Source: a virus
IMG/VR virus record: IMGVR_UViG_3300048838_000879
Coordinates: 1-22,989 of that record
Strand: one strand, 5' to 3'
Length of the DNA stretch: 22,989 nt
The notes beneath the pieces were generated by a model. The model saw only the letters and a program-made list of their open reading frames with translations. It was not told the origin of the DNA and searched no databases. A program made the translations under genes and the position numbers. Each line of letters begins with the position of its first letter. Positions within the stretch are counted from its first letter, which is position 1. Shown in pieces: positions 5,502-22,907 of this stretch.

Positions 5502-5777
5502 TCAGCCATAGCCAGAGCCATAGCCATCGCCATCGCCAGAGCCATAGCCATCGCCATCGCCAGAGCCATAGCCATAGCCAGAGCCATAGCCATCGCCATC
5601 GCCAGAGCCATAGCCATAGCCATAGCCAGAGCCAGAGCCATCGCCAGAGCCATAGCCAGAGCCATAGCCATCGCCAGAGCCAGAGCCAGAGCCAGAGCCA
5701 TCGCCATAGCCAGAGCCATCGCCATAGCCATAGCCAGAGCCAGAGCCAGAGCCATCGTTAATTTTTATACTTTCCAT
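5502..5777 (-). CDS. Gly-[Ser/Tyr/Asp] dipeptide-repeat protein (91 aa)
   Basis: A short leader, MESIKIND, is followed by 41 Gly-x pairs in which x is only Ser (17), Tyr (14) or Asp (10). Every Gly codon is GGC, and x is always TCT, TAT or GAT. The chain should be disordered or sticky, like other Gly/Ser/Tyr-rich low-complexity proteins; no enzyme or membrane motif is seen. It starts inside the end of the DUF6948-like gene (13-nt overlap), with a weak ribosome site, and stops one base before the methyltransferase ATG. Because 6 bp equals two codons, repeat-number change keeps the frame. Whether this frame is translated cannot be proven, since all frames are open here. Function unknown. Confidence 0.6.
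   Translation of the reverse strand: MESIKINDGSGSGSGYGYGDGSGYGDGSGSGSGSGDGYGSGYGSGDGSGSGYGYGYGSGDGDGYGSGYGYGSGDGDGYGSGDGDGYGSGYG
5505..5756. repeat. Tandem hexanucleotide array (minus strand GGC-TCT/TAT/GAT)
   Basis: About 42 units of 6 bp without a single interruption. On the minus strand each unit is GGC plus TCT, TAT or GAT. A higher-order 24-bp pattern (Ser-Asp-Asp-Tyr units) recurs towards the 3' end, which suggests slippage or unequal exchange on more than one scale. The array leaves all six frames open, which explains the long alanine/leucine/methionine frame on the same strand. Read length may affect the unit count. Confidence 0.96.
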
Positions 5778-7277: not shown

Positions 7278-7528
7278 ATTTCCCCCTTTAAGAAATATTT
7301 TGGACATTCATTTCCATTTTTCAAATCATAGTCATGCAAAATAGCGCCAAAAGCGTGCTTTCCAAAGCTTAAATCTTTTTCTTTTCTGTATGTGTTTTGA
7401 TCCCAAAAGTACGTTATCGGCGGCTCTGATACTCCAAAAAAAGATTTCTGATATTGGCCTACCTGCTGCAAAACTTTTATAAAATTATCCTTTGATACTT
7501 CATATGAATTTTCGCCAAGCGGTCTCAC
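7271..7528 (-). CDS. Hypothetical protein (85 aa)
   Basis: The start is a GTG at 7528 whose G is the last base of the Erf gene stop codon, with AAGGGTG upstream, so it is coupled to Erf. The product contains many aromatic residues (QYQKSFFGVSEPPITYFWDQ) and ends with KYFLKGEIC. No domain recognised. Location between the annealing protein and the exonuclease suggests an accessory role in DNA metabolism, but this is inference only. Confidence 0.6.
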   Translation of the reverse strand: MRPLGENSYEVSKDNFIKVLQQVGQYQKSFFGVSEPPITYFWDQNTYRKEKDLSFGKHAFGAILHDYDLKNGNECPKYFLKGEIC

Positions 7529-8223
7529 TAATCACCCTTAATTTCGGTTTTTTGCTGATCGGTGAGAGCCTCAAACATATTCTCTATTTGTGCGACTTGC
7601 ATTTCGTCATACGGTGATCCCCCTATGACATCGCAAAGCTTATCGTATTGGGCTTTTGAAAGTTTCCCAGGCGTACGCTGCACCTTTGCCATGCAATAAA
7701 CTCTTACCGACTCTGGTGGCCATCCCATACCGTGCCCAATGGCATATAGGCGCTTAAGCATTGGCACTGTCGGGCCCTGAGGTGTTTTTGGAGCCTCGGG
7801 TTGCTTTTCTTTTGCATCCTTTTTAGCGCCACCCTGGCTTGCTGCATTGCCATCGTCATCCTCATCTCCAGCAACGAAAAGAAGTGATTGAGCCGCATAC
7901 CTTTTGGCGTATGTCGTGGCGCTCCCAAGACCTTGCATATCTTGCTTTGTCAGCAGCAATTCAACTTTTGATTTTAGCCATTGACCGCTTGAATGAGTGA
8001 TCATGCTTTCAACCACGTATTTATTGCCCTCATTTTCGACGGCCTGCAAAAGCATCAGGCCATGTTTCATCAGTGCTGGCTTTGCTTTTTCAATGGTTAT
8101 CGCTAGGTCAGCGTATTTAGATTTGAAATGAGGATTGGTTTTGTTTAGAGGTAATGACTCTATTTCGCCTAAAGCTTTTGACAGAGCCGTAAATAGCTCA
8201 GTCACCTGATCGGAATGTAACAT
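7528..8223 (-). CDS. erf: ERF-family single-strand DNA annealing protein (231 aa)
   Basis: The N-terminal 115 residues follow the ERF family pattern: a helix with ALGEIESLPLNKTNPHFKSK, then YADLAITIEKAKPALMKHGL, and a later GSATTYAKRYAAQSLLF segment. ERF proteins anneal complementary single strands in phage recombination and, in P22, circularisation of the infecting genome. Residues 120-150 form an acidic then Lys/Pro/Gln-rich linker, followed by a C-terminal helical domain that may bind partners. It is the first gene of the leftward train, right after the control region. The ATG 8223 has GGGGT 4-5 nt upstream. Confidence 0.88.
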   Translation of the reverse strand: MLHSDQVTELFTALSKALGEIESLPLNKTNPHFKSKYADLAITIEKAKPALMKHGLMLLQAVENEGNKYVVESMITHSSGQWLKSKVELLLTKQDMQGLGSATTYAKRYAAQSLLFVAGDEDDDGNAASQGGAKKDAKEKQPEAPKTPQGPTVPMLKRLYAIGHGMGWPPESVRVYCMAKVQRTPGKLSKAQYDKLCDVIGGSPYDEMQVAQIENMFEALTDQQKTEIKGD

Positions 8224-9740: not shown

Positions 9741-9903
9741 GCTCTATTTCCAATGCCCTGATCATCTTAAGAGCCTTTAAGATTTCCTCAGCCTTTAAAA
9801 CGTCATCACACTCCCCTGAATGCATGAGTCTCACGTTAGCCCAGACAATTTCAATGTCTTTGCGGATCTTTAAGGACCTCAAAAAACGACGTATTAGGCC
9901 CAA
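9721..9903 (-). CDS. Hypothetical helical protein at the end of the leftward train (60 aa)
   Basis: The apparent start is a TTG at 9903, overlapping the endolysin stop by 10 nt, without a clear ribosome site. The product is helical and basic at its N-terminus (MGLIRRFLRSLKIRKDIEIV) and acidic later. Its 3' end overlaps the convergent plus-strand gene by 20 nt. No motif. It could be translated by coupling to the endolysin; its reality is less certain than its neighbours. Confidence 0.45.
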   Translation of the reverse strand: MGLIRRFLRSLKIRKDIEIVWANVRLMHSGECDDVLKAEEILKALKMIRALEIELKNLGR

Positions 9904-10319
9904 GGCAACGCTTTCGGCATCAATACGCCCAAAATGTCGCGGCGTCGGTTAAAAGGCCGTATACGCACGTATGCGTTCTGTGCGCTGGCATCCTCAAGGG
10001 AGTTGGTCTTTGATCCCCCGCCACCAGCCTCAATCATCATTTGGCCCTCGATGATCATGCCTATGTGGGTTATTTGAGTCAGGGATTTGCCAAAGAAAAC
10101 AAGTGAGCCAGTATCTCTTGGGCCCTCTTTTGAGCGGTCCTTGAAATACTCATAAAGCCCTTGAGCCGTTTGATCCCCATCTGGATCAATCCCAACCATG
10201 GCCAAAAGCTCTTGCACCAGGCCTGAGCAATCAAAGCCCTTTATTGGATCATCACCACCCCATTTATAGGGGAGTTTAACGAATTGTAGACAGGCTTGAA
10301 TGAATATTTCCCGGGTCAT
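9894..10319 (-). CDS. NlpC/P60 endopeptidase, probable endolysin (141 aa)
   Basis: The catalytic Cys sits in KGFDCSGLVQELL (C31), after YKWGG, and the catalytic His is in LTQITHIGMII (H85), preceded by the family's TGSLVFF segment. A MIEAGGGG stretch near 95-102 is where the third polar residue of the triad region is expected. Such enzymes cut the D-Glu to diaminopimelate bond in peptidoglycan stem peptides. There is no signal peptide, so release depends on the holin-like gene upstream. The ATG at 10319 overlaps the preceding stop (ATGA). A virion-associated tail hydrolase is an alternative, but it lies in the lysis block. Confidence 0.85.
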   Translation of the reverse strand: MTREIFIQACLQFVKLPYKWGGDDPIKGFDCSGLVQELLAMVGIDPDGDQTAQGLYEYFKDRSKEGPRDTGSLVFFGKSLTQITHIGMIIEGQMMIEAGGGGSKTNSLEDASAQNAYVRIRPFNRRRDILGVLMPKALPWA

Positions 10320-13032: not shown

Positions 13033-14241
13033 TTACTCCTCCACCAATATAATGTTATCAAGTGAAAGCTCAAAAAGATCATCGTAATTTGCATCATAAA
13101 TTTCATTTGACCATGTTGCTGATCCAGCATCATCAGGATCGTAATTATGGCTCCATTCAAGCAAAACTTGAGATGTCCAAGGCGCATCTGATTGAGCAAA
13201 ATATCTTTGCGGCTCAAAATTTCGGCCAAGTCGGTATCTAGCCAAAACTTTCGACAATAGATCCTCTTTAACGACGTCAGGTGATCCAACCAAAAGCTGG
13301 TTATTTTCTGAAAGTGTTAAAGTCAGCCTCAAAGTCGTTTGAATTCTATTTGGCAAATTGAATTTGAAATCAAAACTCTGGCCATTTGAAAGGACTATGC
13401 TTTCAACCTCAGTGCCAATGGTCACTGCACCAGCGACAGTAATTTGAGATATCAAAGTGCAAAGTGCTAAGCGAATTTCATCATAATTTGGATTTTCGTC
13501 GTCACCCTCATTGTCCTCACCACCGGTAAGGAATGCTCCTGAAACCGTCGCGCCGTCACCAGTGCCTAGCTGAGCGTATGCAAGAGCAATTGAATTACCA
13601 GCATCACCGCCGTGTCGTGCCGTTAGATAAACCATGACGCCAATAGCCTGAGCCCTAACAAGCAACCCTGCAACCGCGTGAGCGTTGATTTGGGTGGCCA
13701 ATGACTCTGCTGTCGCTGCATTTGATGTCGCTGCTTGAAATGTGGCCGCGCCTAGAGCTGCTGCTCCCGTTTGAGCCGTGAAAGCTGTCGCACCAACTGT
13801 GATCGTGTCGTCAGTGCCATCAACTAAGTTGGCGTAAGAAGTGATTTCAATATCACCCTCAGCCCTGATCCCGTCATCGGCATCAACGCAAATATTAATT
13901 TTTCCAGCGTCAGCCTCGATCATTTGCTTGACCGATGCAATGTAACCCTCTGTTTCGAGCTTTTCGATGATCCCAGGATTGGTGACTACAGGTCTCGAAA
14001 TTCGAGCATTGATTTGATCAAAGTATGTTTGGAGTTTTTGAAAAATCTCAGAGGTTTTGACCTCATTTTCCTGATGCTTTTGAGCGAGTGCATAAAAATA
14101 TTTATAAGCATTGGTGCCAACGAATGTCTCCATTGTGTAAGGGGGATCAAGCTGAAACTGAGTATTTATATTGGTCATGATTTGGCTCATGATCGTATTG
14201 ATGTCTGCTGGCACGTATCCAGTCTCTTGCGCGTAACCCAT
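13033..14241 (-). CDS. Baseplate J-like wedge protein with inserted beta domain (402 aa)
   Basis: The N-terminal 135 residues (GYVPADINTIMSQIMTNINT and the following helical part) and the C-terminal part after about residue 250 (PNYDEIRLALCTLISQITV) fit the overall layout of phage baseplate J/Mu gp47-like proteins. Between them, residues about 139-246 form a distinct domain: GTDDTITVGATAFTAQTGA, then NAATAESLATQINAHA and QLGTGDGAT. This same domain occurs in the second decoration-like protein at 21670-22485. The Ala-rich, beta-like insert may be surface-exposed on the baseplate. The call rests on gene order and layout. Confidence 0.68.
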   Translation of the reverse strand: MGYAQETGYVPADINTIMSQIMTNINTQFQLDPPYTMETFVGTNAYKYFYALAQKHQENEVKTSEIFQKLQTYFDQINARISRPVVTNPGIIEKLETEGYIASVKQMIEADAGKINICVDADDGIRAEGDIEITSYANLVDGTDDTITVGATAFTAQTGAAALGAATFQAATSNAATAESLATQINAHAVAGLLVRAQAIGVMVYLTARHGGDAGNSIALAYAQLGTGDGATVSGAFLTGGEDNEGDDENPNYDEIRLALCTLISQITVAGAVTIGTEVESIVLSNGQSFDFKFNLPNRIQTTLRLTLTLSENNQLLVGSPDVVKEDLLSKVLARYRLGRNFEPQRYFAQSDAPWTSQVLLEWSHNYDPDDAGSATWSNEIYDANYDDLFELSLDNIILVEE

Positions 14242-18079: not shown

Positions 18080-19396
18080 TTAGCTTTGTGTAATTTGACC
18101 GGCAATTCGCCATAATGCGCGTGGCGTTGGCACTGCTATACGTGCAGATGCAACGAAATTGTCCTGCTCAAGTGAAATTTGAATGTCACCCTCAGTGATC
18201 CAGCCTCGGCCAACGTAACCTGGATTGCCGTTTTCAAGACCGTCACCATCAATGACCTTTTGCAATTCATCCTCTAGCAAAGCGGCCTGAGTATGAGTGT
18301 ATCCCGGTTGATTTGCTGAAACGTATTGTAGACCTTTTGATTGCAGGTCAATTTCAAGATTTCGAATGATGTATGGTGCAACGATGGCCTTACCACCAGC
18401 GCAAAATAGTGCTAAGCGGTGACTGAATTCATCGTCACTGATCACAAAGCTGATCTTGTCGTCAAAAAGAGCCTCTGCATTTCCAAGGACATTGACGTCA
18501 TCGGCAACGCCCATTGCAATGTATTGCTGATTTTTCCAATCAAGCGGATTTGATAAGAGCTTTCCAAAAGCAATCATCATATTTTTAGCGCCATTTTCTG
18601 ATTTAATGTGGAAAGCGCAACGGTTTTCGATTGCGGCCTGGGTTGCAAGGAAAGTGTCGTCATCTGAGCTAACACCAACCACGCCCATGAATTCGCCAAC
18701 GTCAAGACCATCACCGACATCTGTCACGGCGGCTGCACCACCAGTAAGCGAAACGGCTGCACCAAATACGGCCTGCACGTCAGCCTCATCACCTGAGTCA
18801 ACTAGGGCCTCAACCAGAGCATTCGAGGCACTGTCAGCGCCGATTGCAGTCGCAATTTGCTGAGCGGTTGTCACGCCGTCCTCAATTACAACGGTGATTG
18901 CTGATCCAACTACTGATGCTGTCGCGTCAGCGGTGCCACCAGTGTCATAGTTGATGGTGATCGAATTGCCAGCAGTGCCAGCAGTTTTTGCTTTAAATAA
19001 AATATCTTGGACTTTCTTTTCAGCTTTGACAGCGGCGCTGATGACTTGAGTCCCGGCCGTTATATCCTCATCGCTGAAATCACTTGAAATCAGGAGCGTG
19101 AAAAACTTATTTAAAGCTGGCTCCTCAGCCAAAAAGTCGGCTAGATCCAAATCAGCAACCGGCATCACATACACGCGGCTAAGACCTGCACTTAAAACGT
19201 CCTTTGGCTCATCGCTGTCAGTCACGGCCTCAACTTGGCCATTCGTGGTGCAGAGCACTGGTACGCCAAGAGTGCCCATGTAACCGTCAACCGGTAACAC
19301 TACAACGCACACTTGTTTTAGGAATGCTGTGCTGGCCGCTGGGGTTGGGTTGATTGCGATAATTTTAAAGAAATAATCAAGCAAAATTTTGGCCAT
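18080..19396 (-). CDS. Tail sheath protein (438 aa)
   Basis: The largest tail protein outside the fibre/tape region, followed by the tube gene. The C-terminus is sheath-like: GRGWITEGDIQISLEQDNFV, then a short ARIAVPTPRALWRIAG strand region. Residues about 130-222 form an Ala/Gly/Thr-rich insert with KAKTAGTAGNSITINYDTGG and TTAQQIATAIGADSASNALV, a type of beta-sandwich insert I have seen in Mu-like sheath proteins. GAGGAG lies before ATG 19396. Contractile tail status of the phage rests on this gene. Confidence 0.8.
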   Translation of the reverse strand: MAKILLDYFFKIIAINPTPAASTAFLKQVCVVVLPVDGYMGTLGVPVLCTTNGQVEAVTDSDEPKDVLSAGLSRVYVMPVADLDLADFLAEEPALNKFFTLLISSDFSDEDITAGTQVISAAVKAEKKVQDILFKAKTAGTAGNSITINYDTGGTADATASVVGSAITVVIEDGVTTAQQIATAIGADSASNALVEALVDSGDEADVQAVFGAAVSLTGGAAAVTDVGDGLDVGEFMGVVGVSSDDDTFLATQAAIENRCAFHIKSENGAKNMMIAFGKLLSNPLDWKNQQYIAMGVADDVNVLGNAEALFDDKISFVISDDEFSHRLALFCAGGKAIVAPYIIRNLEIDLQSKGLQYVSANQPGYTHTQAALLEDELQKVIDGDGLENGNPGYVGRGWITEGDIQISLEQDNFVASARIAVPTPRALWRIAGQITQS

Positions 19397-20635: not shown

Positions 20636-21499
20636 TTATTGGAATGTATGAGGTTGGCGAATGATGCCCTTATACGCCAAAACCTCAACCATTGTGGAGC
20701 CCATCAAAAAGTTATGCCAAACCTCTTTGTTTCGAGCGTCTACACCTTGATCATCCAATTTCGGAGGAGTCGTGTAATGGAGCATGATCTGTTTGAGCGT
20801 CAAAATCATGAAACCATTTGCACCTGATGGCGTAACCTCAGGAGGCAATTCAGTGATCGAATAGTTCGATCCTAAAGCCTTTTGCAAAACATCTCGGAAA
20901 GGCTGGCTTGACGTGCCATATACACCCGAAAGTTTTGTGAGCATCGTTGAGCCATAAAACACTACAACTTTTGGGCCAGCAACGCTGTCGGCTTTGATCT
21001 TTTCAGCAACGACACTCGCGTGTAGTGCTGGCAAATGGCCGTCGGTGTTTGCAAGCTGGCTTGAGTTTTCAAGTAAATAGTTTGGATCATTTGACCAAAA
21101 AAGGCCGTTATTGACCATTGTAGAGGCGCTTGATCCCTCACCCAATAAAACCAAGTCATCTTGCTTTTTATTGTTTTCATCCAAAACTTGCTTGATCACT
21201 GACTCGTTTTGCTCACGATCTTGCAAAGTTGATTGGACGAATTGAGCAGCGAAAAAATACTTCTTAAAAGTTTTGGTTTTTTCGATAGCCGCAATTTGGT
21301 GTACGTGAGTGTCCTTTGGATTGTAGTGCTGAGCGCGAATTTCGCCAACGGCTTCAAGGCGCTTGAAATTCACTTTTCCAACGACTTCAGGGTACGCTTT
21401 CGAATTGCCCAAAAGGATCGGCCAAAAAGGCTCATAGGCTGACTCATAGTCGGCCATGATTTCATTGGTCTCTCTCAATACGATCTTATTTGTGCTCAT
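20636..21499 (-). CDS. Major capsid protein, HK97-like fold expected (287 aa)
   Basis: Position after decoration genes, size of 287 aa and a following strong terminator indicate the major capsid protein. The N-terminal arm region is helical, and the C-terminus has the typical late P/A-domain end, HNFLMGSTMVEVLAYKGIIR. The middle LVLLGEGSSASTMVNNGLFW resembles the family in which bound capsomer loops hold an FGN-type segment. GGGAG lies upstream of ATG 21499. No separate protease is visible; maturation may depend on another protein or not require cleavage. Confidence 0.78.
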   Translation of the reverse strand: MSTNKIVLRETNEIMADYESAYEPFWPILLGNSKAYPEVVGKVNFKRLEAVGEIRAQHYNPKDTHVHQIAAIEKTKTFKKYFFAAQFVQSTLQDREQNESVIKQVLDENNKKQDDLVLLGEGSSASTMVNNGLFWSNDPNYLLENSSQLANTDGHLPALHASVVAEKIKADSVAGPKVVVFYGSTMLTKLSGVYGTSSQPFRDVLQKALGSNYSITELPPEVTPSGANGFMILTLKQIMLHYTTPPKLDDQGVDARNKEVWHNFLMGSTMVEVLAYKGIIRQPHTFQ

Positions 21500-21670
21500 C
21501 TATTCTGCTCCCTGGTTAGTTTTAAATTTAGCGAATTTGGGGTGATCTTGGAAATCACTTTTTGGTTTACTGGACTCAACTGACTCGGCTGGCACTTGGG
21601 CCTCACCGCTTTGGACTGCTTTTTCGGCCTCATCTTTAGAGGGCTTTTTGAATACTGGTTTTTTTGCCAT
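21500..21670 (-). CDS. Small Lys/Glu-rich protein between decoration and capsid genes (56 aa)
   Basis: The ATG at 21670 overlaps the stop of the previous gene as TAATG, and the TAG at 21500 directly precedes the capsid ATG. The product MAKKPVFKKPSKDEAEKAVQ continues with polar residues to KFKTNQGAE, so it is likely disordered. It could be a small head protein. Missed easily because it is short, but coupled starts on both sides support it. Confidence 0.62.
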   Translation of the reverse strand: MAKKPVFKKPSKDEAEKAVQSGEAQVPAESVESSKPKSDFQDHPKFAKFKTNQGAE

Positions 21671-22485
21671 TATAAACCGCCTTGCATATCGACAAGAGCG
21701 CCACCAGTTTCAGTGCCGTCCTCTTGAATTGCAGTTTTCGGACCTGCACAATAAAGCGCGTCTGAAACCGTTGATCCATTGCTGGCAACGTCGGCTAAGC
21801 CAGTCACGTCATTGATATACATTTTCAAACCAGGGACGATGTAGTCCATATCAGCTGGATCATCTGAGCCACCGCCAAGATCGTCGTTTTCATCAACGTC
21901 ACCGCCGATTGTAGCACCGTCACCAGTGCCTAATTGCTCATAGGTAAGATTGATTAACTCATTGCCTGCAACGCCATCGGCTTTTGCATATATAGTCACG
22001 ACTGCACCATTTGCAACCGCATAAACCAAAGCACCCGCTGTCGCGTGAGCATTGATTTGAGCAGCTAAGCTTGTCGCTGCATTCGATGTCCCTGTGCGGG
22101 CATCAAATGTCGCTTGGCCAGCAACGACAGCGCCGTCAGTGGCCGTGAATGCCGTCTCACCAACTGTCACCGTATCATCGGTGCCAGCAATAAGATTTGC
22201 AATATTGGTGATCGTGACGATACCGCTTGCACGCTTTAAGGTGGCTTTCACTGGCACCCTAAGGCCCGCTTGAGTAACGTCAGTTTTTTTATGGTCTGAC
22301 AGAGATTTTCCACGGGAAACGCCGTAACGCATCCCTGCTGATTTTAAAAGTGATGGCAACCCATCTGATCCAAGGCTCACGCATGATCCAGCAAGAAAAC
22401 TCGCTGGATCGACGTTAAAACAAGCCGTATCTTTATGATTGCTCTGAGTGCCTGCAAGCACAATTTTGCTTGAGTCTTGAGACAT
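21670..22485 (-). CDS. Head decoration-like paralogue 2 with inserted beta domain (271 aa)
   Basis: Residues 1-80 and 210-271 match the adjacent 140-aa protein: both open MSQD, share FLAG-C, a DG-L stretch, GKSLS-H and a final GGL, and both end in the bases GGCGGTTTATAATG. Between them, about residues 84-205 hold an extra domain (GTDDTVTVGETAFTATDGA, NAATSLAAQINAHATAG, QLGTGDGAT) that closely matches the insert in the baseplate protein at 13033-14241. The outer part is probably a head decoration or vertex protein; the insert may be exposed on the capsid. Starts at ATG 22485 with TAATG coupling. Confidence 0.7.
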   Translation of the reverse strand: MSQDSSKIVLAGTQSNHKDTACFNVDPASFLAGSCVSLGSDGLPSLLKSAGMRYGVSRGKSLSDHKKTDVTQAGLRVPVKATLKRASGIVTITNIANLIAGTDDTVTVGETAFTATDGAVVAGQATFDARTGTSNAATSLAAQINAHATAGALVYAVANGAVVTIYAKADGVAGNELINLTYEQLGTGDGATIGGDVDENDDLGGGSDDPADMDYIVPGLKMYINDVTGLADVASNGSTVSDALYCAGPKTAIQEDGTETGGALVDMQGGL

Positions 22486-22907
22486 TATAAACCGCCGATG
22501 AAATCAATTCGAGCTGCACCGTCAGTGATTGCTGCACCAGCCTCATCAACTGCGCTTTTTTTGCCCGATACATAAATGGCATTTACAGCCGTACCTGAGG
22601 CAACGGCTTTTCCAGTAGTAGTTGAAATTTGCACCTGAGCGCCAATCACTGGCTCAAAACCAGTATCTAAAAGAATAGGCACGCCTTTGCCTTTTCGAGC
22701 AACCGTTATCCGATTGTGTTCAGACAATGATTTTCCAAGAGAGATGCCAAGTTTTCCACCAGCAGCAGCAGTCAAATCCAAATCACCGTCATCATCTAAG
22801 TGACAGCAAAGGCCTGCTAAAAAAGTCGCCTCTGAGCCAGCCCAGTTATCAGACTCAATGATATTTGAGCCGTGGCTCCCCATATAAATAACGTCGTCTT
22901 GGCTCAT
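22485..22907 (-). CDS. Head decoration-like paralogue 1 (140 aa)
   Basis: Acidic, beta-like, Gly/Ala-rich protein. ATG 22907 overlaps the scaffold stop as ATGA (equal to 45-43 in the first copy of the repeat). Its pattern FLAGLCCHLDDDGDLDL, KLGISLGKSLSEHNRI and the C-terminal YVSGKKSAVDEAGAAI - FIGGL also occur in the next gene. Lacks the insert. A capsid decoration or head surface protein is likely from place before the capsid gene. Confidence 0.68.
   Translation of the reverse strand: MSQDDVIYMGSHGSNIIESDNWAGSEATFLAGLCCHLDDDGDLDLTAAAGGKLGISLGKSLSEHNRITVARKGKGVPILLDTGFEPVIGAQVQISTTTGKAVASGTAVNAIYVSGKKSAVDEAGAAITDGAARIDFIGGL

Follow-up and report, generated by a model that had tools for sequence, protein, structure and literature searches.

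The Milano tail sheath protein carries an external sheath extension domain at residues 91-203 (PMC10811340). Ig-like phage domains are presented as promiscuous, outward-facing, dispensable and horizontally exchanged in those parts of the literature that deal with them (Fraser et al. 2006, cited in PMC9230969 and PMC10684548; for Hoc, PMC10385173), and a role in weak adhesion has been proposed for them (PMC9230969; PMC10385173). Here we describe a domain, apparently of the sheath-extension type, that is found in head, sheath and baseplate proteins within one group of dwarf myoviruses.

The stretch of DNA analysed (hereafter the window) is the whole of a virus record of 22,989 bases (IMG/VR IMGVR_UViG_3300048838_000879). 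The minus strand carries its late genes, in the order TerL, portal, Mu F-like, scaffold-like, dec1, dec2, major capsid protein (MCP), sheath, baseplate and fibre, running across the record's ends; several of these names come from gene order and weak profile matches. The Bdellovibrio phages phi1402 and MAC3UK have the same late-gene order, and the identity of the window to them is 41-43% for the MCP (20636..21499, minus strand; the MAC3UK ortholog is annotated as a putative major capsid protein), 47-49% for the sheath and 52-59% for the baseplate flanks. Homologous MCP, sheath and baseplate genes in matching order place the window virus, by sequence, among the phi1402-like dwarf myoviruses. We compared it with phi1402, MAC3UK and Dulem virus 29, the named relatives, and with related IMG/VR records, denoted here by L-numbers. 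Against 50,697 annotated phages, tblastn with the domain described below found no match at E≤0.01 or at E≤1, and tblastn with the whole baseplate protein reached only phi1402, MAC3UK, Dulem 29 and, weakly, Sonora. A scan of genome contigs with a single narrow pattern found no relative. Elsewhere in the window, the hexamer AGCCAT is repeated approximately 42 times in an array at positions 5504-5755 (85% matches), which translates in two minus-strand frames into repeats of the GSGSGY or ALAMAM type, and positions 9897-10319 encode an NlpC/P60 family protein (Pfam E=1.1e-16), probably a lysin.

The second decoration-like gene, dec2 (21670..22485, minus strand), is an open reading frame between dec1 and the MCP gene; its product of 271 amino acids matches the dec family (HMM E=2.8e-61), and gene order suggests a decoration role. 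It bears one insert of a domain that we call type B (amino acids 88-195; 21901..22224, minus strand), delimited by HMM boundaries and by the empty site in paralogs and in L009, within a wider insert at approximately amino acids 83-206. The initial annotation had described the domain as cleanly absent from the tandem paralog, and indeed dec1 (22485..22907, minus strand; 140 amino acids) aligns to dec2 on both sides and has no insert. A second type B insert (amino acids 129-241 by profile boundaries; 13519..13857, minus strand) lies in a 402 amino acid protein at the gpJ/wedge position (13033..14241, minus strand), at a site that is empty in eight relatives. Because this protein has no match to Pfam Baseplate_J, its putative baseplate role comes from synteny: in phi1402 (gp30), MAC3UK (MAC3UK_0032) and Dulem virus 29 (the DUF276 protein), the ortholog comes immediately after the small baseplate gene.

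By BLASTP the two proteins match with E=8e-37, from dec2 residue 85 and baseplate residue 126 onward. The inserts, approximately 110 amino acids long, are 56-59% identical, whereas the host flanks give local scores (20 upstream, 28 downstream) no better than those of shuffled sequence (means 23 and 25). These results confirm that a decoration-like and a baseplate protein have one domain in common, and the empty sites at both places bear out its earlier description as a mobile module carried by head and tail proteins that are otherwise unrelated. The segments first proposed (residues about 96-196 and 139-240) are real, but the domain starts approximately 10 residues earlier in each. The copies are, moreover, far from "almost unchanged" at the DNA level: they are 55-56% identical in nucleotides and 36% at third codon positions, with identical codons at 41% of identical residues versus 33% expected from codon usage. 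Judged by these sites, the window's two copies are old. The region around TVTVG-TAFT is locally high, with 83% nucleotide identity over 10 codons. AlphaFold2 models of dec2 (pLDDT 86) and of the baseplate insert (pLDDT 87, with a central 14-residue helix) were obtained, and the insert would be an autonomous module of approximately 110 residues, built of beta strands and one main helix. In Foldseek the whole-dec2 model gave weak matches only, to the E217 and Pa193 decorating proteins, and the host fold is not firmly identified.

The initial annotation had given the domain two homes, in head and baseplate. Both are real, but the account was incomplete: the tail sheath is a third home, and probably the original one. 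The window sheath protein (18080..19396, minus strand; 438 amino acids; sheath-family HMM E=2.6e-179; MAC3UK ortholog annotated as putative tail sheath) has at the extension-domain place not type B but another domain, type A (amino acids 125-220; 18737..19024, minus strand), where relatives have type B or an empty slot. Pfam and PDB searches with this sheath gave no useful match, only a weak one of the type A domain to Phage_sheath_domII. Nine relatives (L003, L004, L005, L006, L008, L009, L010, L011 and L055) have type B in the sheath at approximately amino acids 114-234, where it separates the conserved sheath body into two halves; in other sheaths of the group the halves are directly joined at this position. 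A classical sheath in L012 (phrog_165) also bears a type B domain.

A type B profile built from 20 copies matched, by hmmsearch against PDB sequences, the 7-7-1 sheath 9hz7 (E=5.1e-4, residues 98-191) and the Milano sheath 8fop (E=0.004, residues 99-191). By these profile matches the type B inserts belong with Milano-type sheath extension domains. In a Foldseek comparison of the domain model with the PDB, sheath chains make up nine of the 11 best matches, with probabilities up to 1.0 and E-values no better than 0.011; for the A-1(L), Milano and 7-7-1 sheaths the TM scores are 0.49-0.58 (probability 0.44-1.0, weak E-values of 0.011-0.32). Among predicted viral structures, the domain is similar to regions of major tail proteins, a baseplate J-like protein, tail tubular protein B and sheaths. 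The direction from the sheath, the probable original home, to the other proteins follows from the wider distribution in sheaths and not from a rooted tree. Copies are also seen in other phages. A 652 amino acid protein on a 42-kb viral contig (L036, 1827-3785), adjoining tail-fibre-like genes, carries a type B domain approximately 60% identical to the copies of phi1402-like phages, possibly by transfer between different phage types, and the major tail protein of phage Sonora, a siphovirus (L042, 2710-4629), has a distant type B copy at amino acids 44-148 (27.8 bits).

We recorded the slot states of each genome as dec2/sheath/baseplate, with 0 for empty and nd for not seen. The window and L007 are each B/A/B, and the L039-L053 genome is B/A/0. 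Type B fills all three slots in L003, L011 and L006 (B/B/B each), followed by L004 (B/B/0), L005 (B/B/nd), L008 (nd/B/B), L009 (0/B/nd) and L010 (0/B/0). The remaining states are A/B/B in L055, A/nd/nd in L059, 0/0/B in L033, 0/0/0 in both L052 and L056, 0/A/0 in both phi1402 and MAC3UK, and nd/0/0 in Dulem 29. A head state of 0 means that no filled gene was seen in L033, L056, phi1402 and MAC3UK, where a single decoration-type gene was found, and in L010, whose decoration-type gene is a weak match; in L009 and L052 both decoration genes are present, neither has an insert, and the site of the second is empty. The baseplate site is empty in L004, L010, L052, L053, L056, phi1402, MAC3UK and Dulem 29. 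A type A profile made from sheath inserts only matches the dec2 inserts of L059 (E=1.5e-12) and L055 (E=1.4e-10), and therefore the head and sheath slots accept either domain. The loci with type A in the dec2 slot are 9114-9827 in L055 and 8999-9745 in L059; type A is otherwise found in sheaths. Thus all three slots are polymorphic, each being empty in some relatives, and the sheath and decoration slots also take type A. On the sheath-core tree, which is poorly resolved, the three slots need at least 6, 6 and 7 changes.

The two domain types may themselves be related. In type A the AGN-hairpin is followed by the helix, while in type B the helix comes before the AGN-hairpin, and the two profiles match piecewise in swapped order (hhalign, probability 34%). 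Type A positions 7-37 match type B positions 75-106 with a mean of 8.3 bits; after shuffling, the mean is -1.2 and the maximum 8.5. A tandem-duplication test for circular permutation brought no gain in score, because single copies already give the piecewise match. At these low scores, A and B are possibly circular permutants of one fold.

The inserts and their hosts have different histories. Between the window and L007, the dec2 inserts are 69% identical and the host flanks 46%; the pattern is reversed between the window and L003 (inserts 52%, hosts 68%). In the insert tree, the dec2 inserts of the window and L007 are sisters (100/95), and the dec2 and baseplate inserts of these two genomes form one clade (99/97). 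In the dec2 host tree the window and L007 stand far apart and their pairing is rejected (AU p=2e-8). AU tests against each host class as a single clade are borderline (p=0.06-0.11). On these alignments the insert trees conflict with the host trees. Exact runs of at least 28 nt between copies in different proteins occur in 5 of 13 intragenomic pairs versus 0 of 197 intergenomic pairs, and the longest, of 35 nt (L005 dec2/sheath) and 34 nt (L003 baseplate/sheath), were never reached in 1,000 codon-usage randomisations. The excess codon identity has a mean z of 2.6 within genomes versus 0.5-0.9 between genomes. Which segments are shared varies between genomes, as patchy conversion would predict. 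These findings suggest patchy gene conversion between copies in one genome among the relatives; no exchange between genes was seen in L004 and L055. In the window pair the sign of exchange is weak: the longest run is 16 nt (p=0.035), and the nucleotide identity has a z of 0.7. Exchange between genes of one genome, as proposed initially with the help of a phage Erf protein, is thus supported in relatives by the long exact runs, though not as a recent event in the window. The window does encode an Erf-family recombinase (7528..8223, minus strand; Pfam ERF E=1.4e-20), as do most longer related records: 9 of 15 group records have a match (the window and eight others, phi1402 among them), and several of those without one are short fragments. 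Erf might be the agent of the exchanges. In phi1402 itself, gp01 (L016, 1-1098), annotated as "putative SSB protein," matches the ERF family above the curated cut-off (E=5.6e-8).

We propose that the module is of the tail-sheath extension-domain type, that its original home was probably the outer face of the sheath protein, and that in this dwarf myovirus lineage it was also placed in a loop of dec2 and in a loop of the baseplate protein at the gpJ position. Each of the three genes would have a slot, empty or filled, with the head and sheath slots taking A or B, and copies would be gained, lost, replaced and partly homogenised. The pattern points to homologous recombination as the most likely route, between genes and between co-infecting phages, possibly mediated by the Erf single-strand annealing protein. 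We are rather confident of this account of the module's nature and distribution, adhesion left aside. A more far-reaching version, possible but doubtful, has two interchangeable surface modules (A and B, as circular permutants of one fold) forming a common pool in one small phage lineage and moving by recombination among three fixed slots on head, tail sheath and baseplate, with intragenomic concerted evolution and a coordinated particle surface.

Several other readings of the distribution must be weighed. It is very unlikely that the decoration and baseplate proteins ancestrally had the segment as an integral part, with loss in some lineages. Losses alone could yield some of the empty states, and the poor resolution of the sheath-core tree leaves this reading some room, but one domain is common to unrelated host proteins, the dec1 paralogs and distant relatives (Dulem 29, phi1402, L010) have no domain in baseplate or head, another domain fills the dec2 slot of L055 and L059, and insert and flank trees conflict. 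With so many empty sites among relatives, it is not an ancestral part of all such proteins. Hardly credible is the initial proposal that recent gene conversion in this very genome homogenised both window copies. The local identity around TVTVG-TAFT, the 16-nt run and the presence of an Erf gene would fit it; against them stand the low overall nucleotide identity, the third positions and a codon identity barely above expectation (0.41 vs 0.33), and the age of the pair at third positions leaves recent conversion in the window without support. Recent conversion of the whole domain is refuted there by diverged synonymous sites. That head, sheath and baseplate made separate acquisitions from other phages, so that intragenomic similarity reflects a common donor pool and codon usage, is less easily dismissed but still unlikely. 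The domain does occur in other phage types (the L036 protein, the Sonora major tail protein, the L012 sheath) and the window pair is old, but exact runs of 28-35 nt are found solely within genomes, above codon-usage randomisations, and the excess codon identity is likewise intragenomic.

A slotted module exchanged among three genes would most likely serve as an accessory contact of the virion with its surroundings rather than as an essential structural part of head or baseplate, since relatives do without it at every site (L052 and L056 at all three) and its counterpart in the solved Milano sheath points outward. By homology with the Milano extension domain, it would be exposed on the outer particle surface. 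Weak adhesion to cell surfaces is a fair guess at its role, though one that we would more readily bet against than for. The main rival to an accessory contact is a structural brace making inter-subunit contacts in sheath, capsid and baseplate, or a fibre anchor, and we find this conceivable but improbable. The Milano extension domain joins a disulfide network via Cys182 (PMC10811340), additional domains in sheath proteins have been suggested to lend the sheath stability (PMC9230969), and the A-1(L) wedge insertion domain holds the tail fibre (PMC10966104); that wedge is absent from the Foldseek matches of this domain. Yet as a brace the same module would need to serve three different lattices, each of which some relatives build with an empty slot.

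The distribution of the module takes the shuffling of phage domains beyond receptor-binding and Ig-like parts, to a non-Ig domain of the sheath type, and shows a single module on proteins of the head, the tail and the baseplate within one small virus. It also offers a case, at the level of sequence, of different structural genes exchanging material within the same genome. The natural empty, A and B variants at two slots provide a ready-made comparison for what peripheral phage domains do, and the slots point to sites at which the virion proteins of dwarf myoviruses naturally accept the insertion of a whole domain.

How does the module compare with known families and systems? Its best Pfam resemblance, for type A and two type B members, is PF17481 (Phage_sheath_domII), where two type A sheaths score 11.7 and 13.3 bits versus a curated cut-off of 31.4 bits and the two type B members have E-values of at least 0.014, also below the cut-off. 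PHROG 28344, an uncharacterised family of 205 positions, covers the domain, and only the C-terminal half of the family corresponds; its profile matches the window baseplate protein with E=4e-4 and relatives with E-values down to 1e-12, with eight related records at E≤0.01. The domain mosaicism of Smug et al. 2023 (PMC10684548) is similar in that domains are shuffled between proteins of different function. A three-slot case is not described there, as the words "sheath" and "decoration" are absent from the paper's text, and in the part of the literature covered by our searches we found no account of a single domain of this kind shared by the head, the sheath and the baseplate of a phage. The extension domain of Milano gp20 and 7-7-1 gp126 resembles the module in sequence profile (E=0.004 and 5e-4), place in the sheath and strand/helix order; there it is part of the sheath, whereas here it is found in head-surface and baseplate proteins as well. 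The module also behaves like the promiscuous Ig-like phage domains, occurring in several kinds of virion protein and being present or absent among close relatives, yet by Pfam it is not one of them: neither the host proteins nor the 20 domain copies match the Ig, FN3 or Big families. In contrast to Ig-like domains, it has the central 14-residue helix, and a single small genome may encode it in as many as three proteins, in some genomes with its sequence homogenised.
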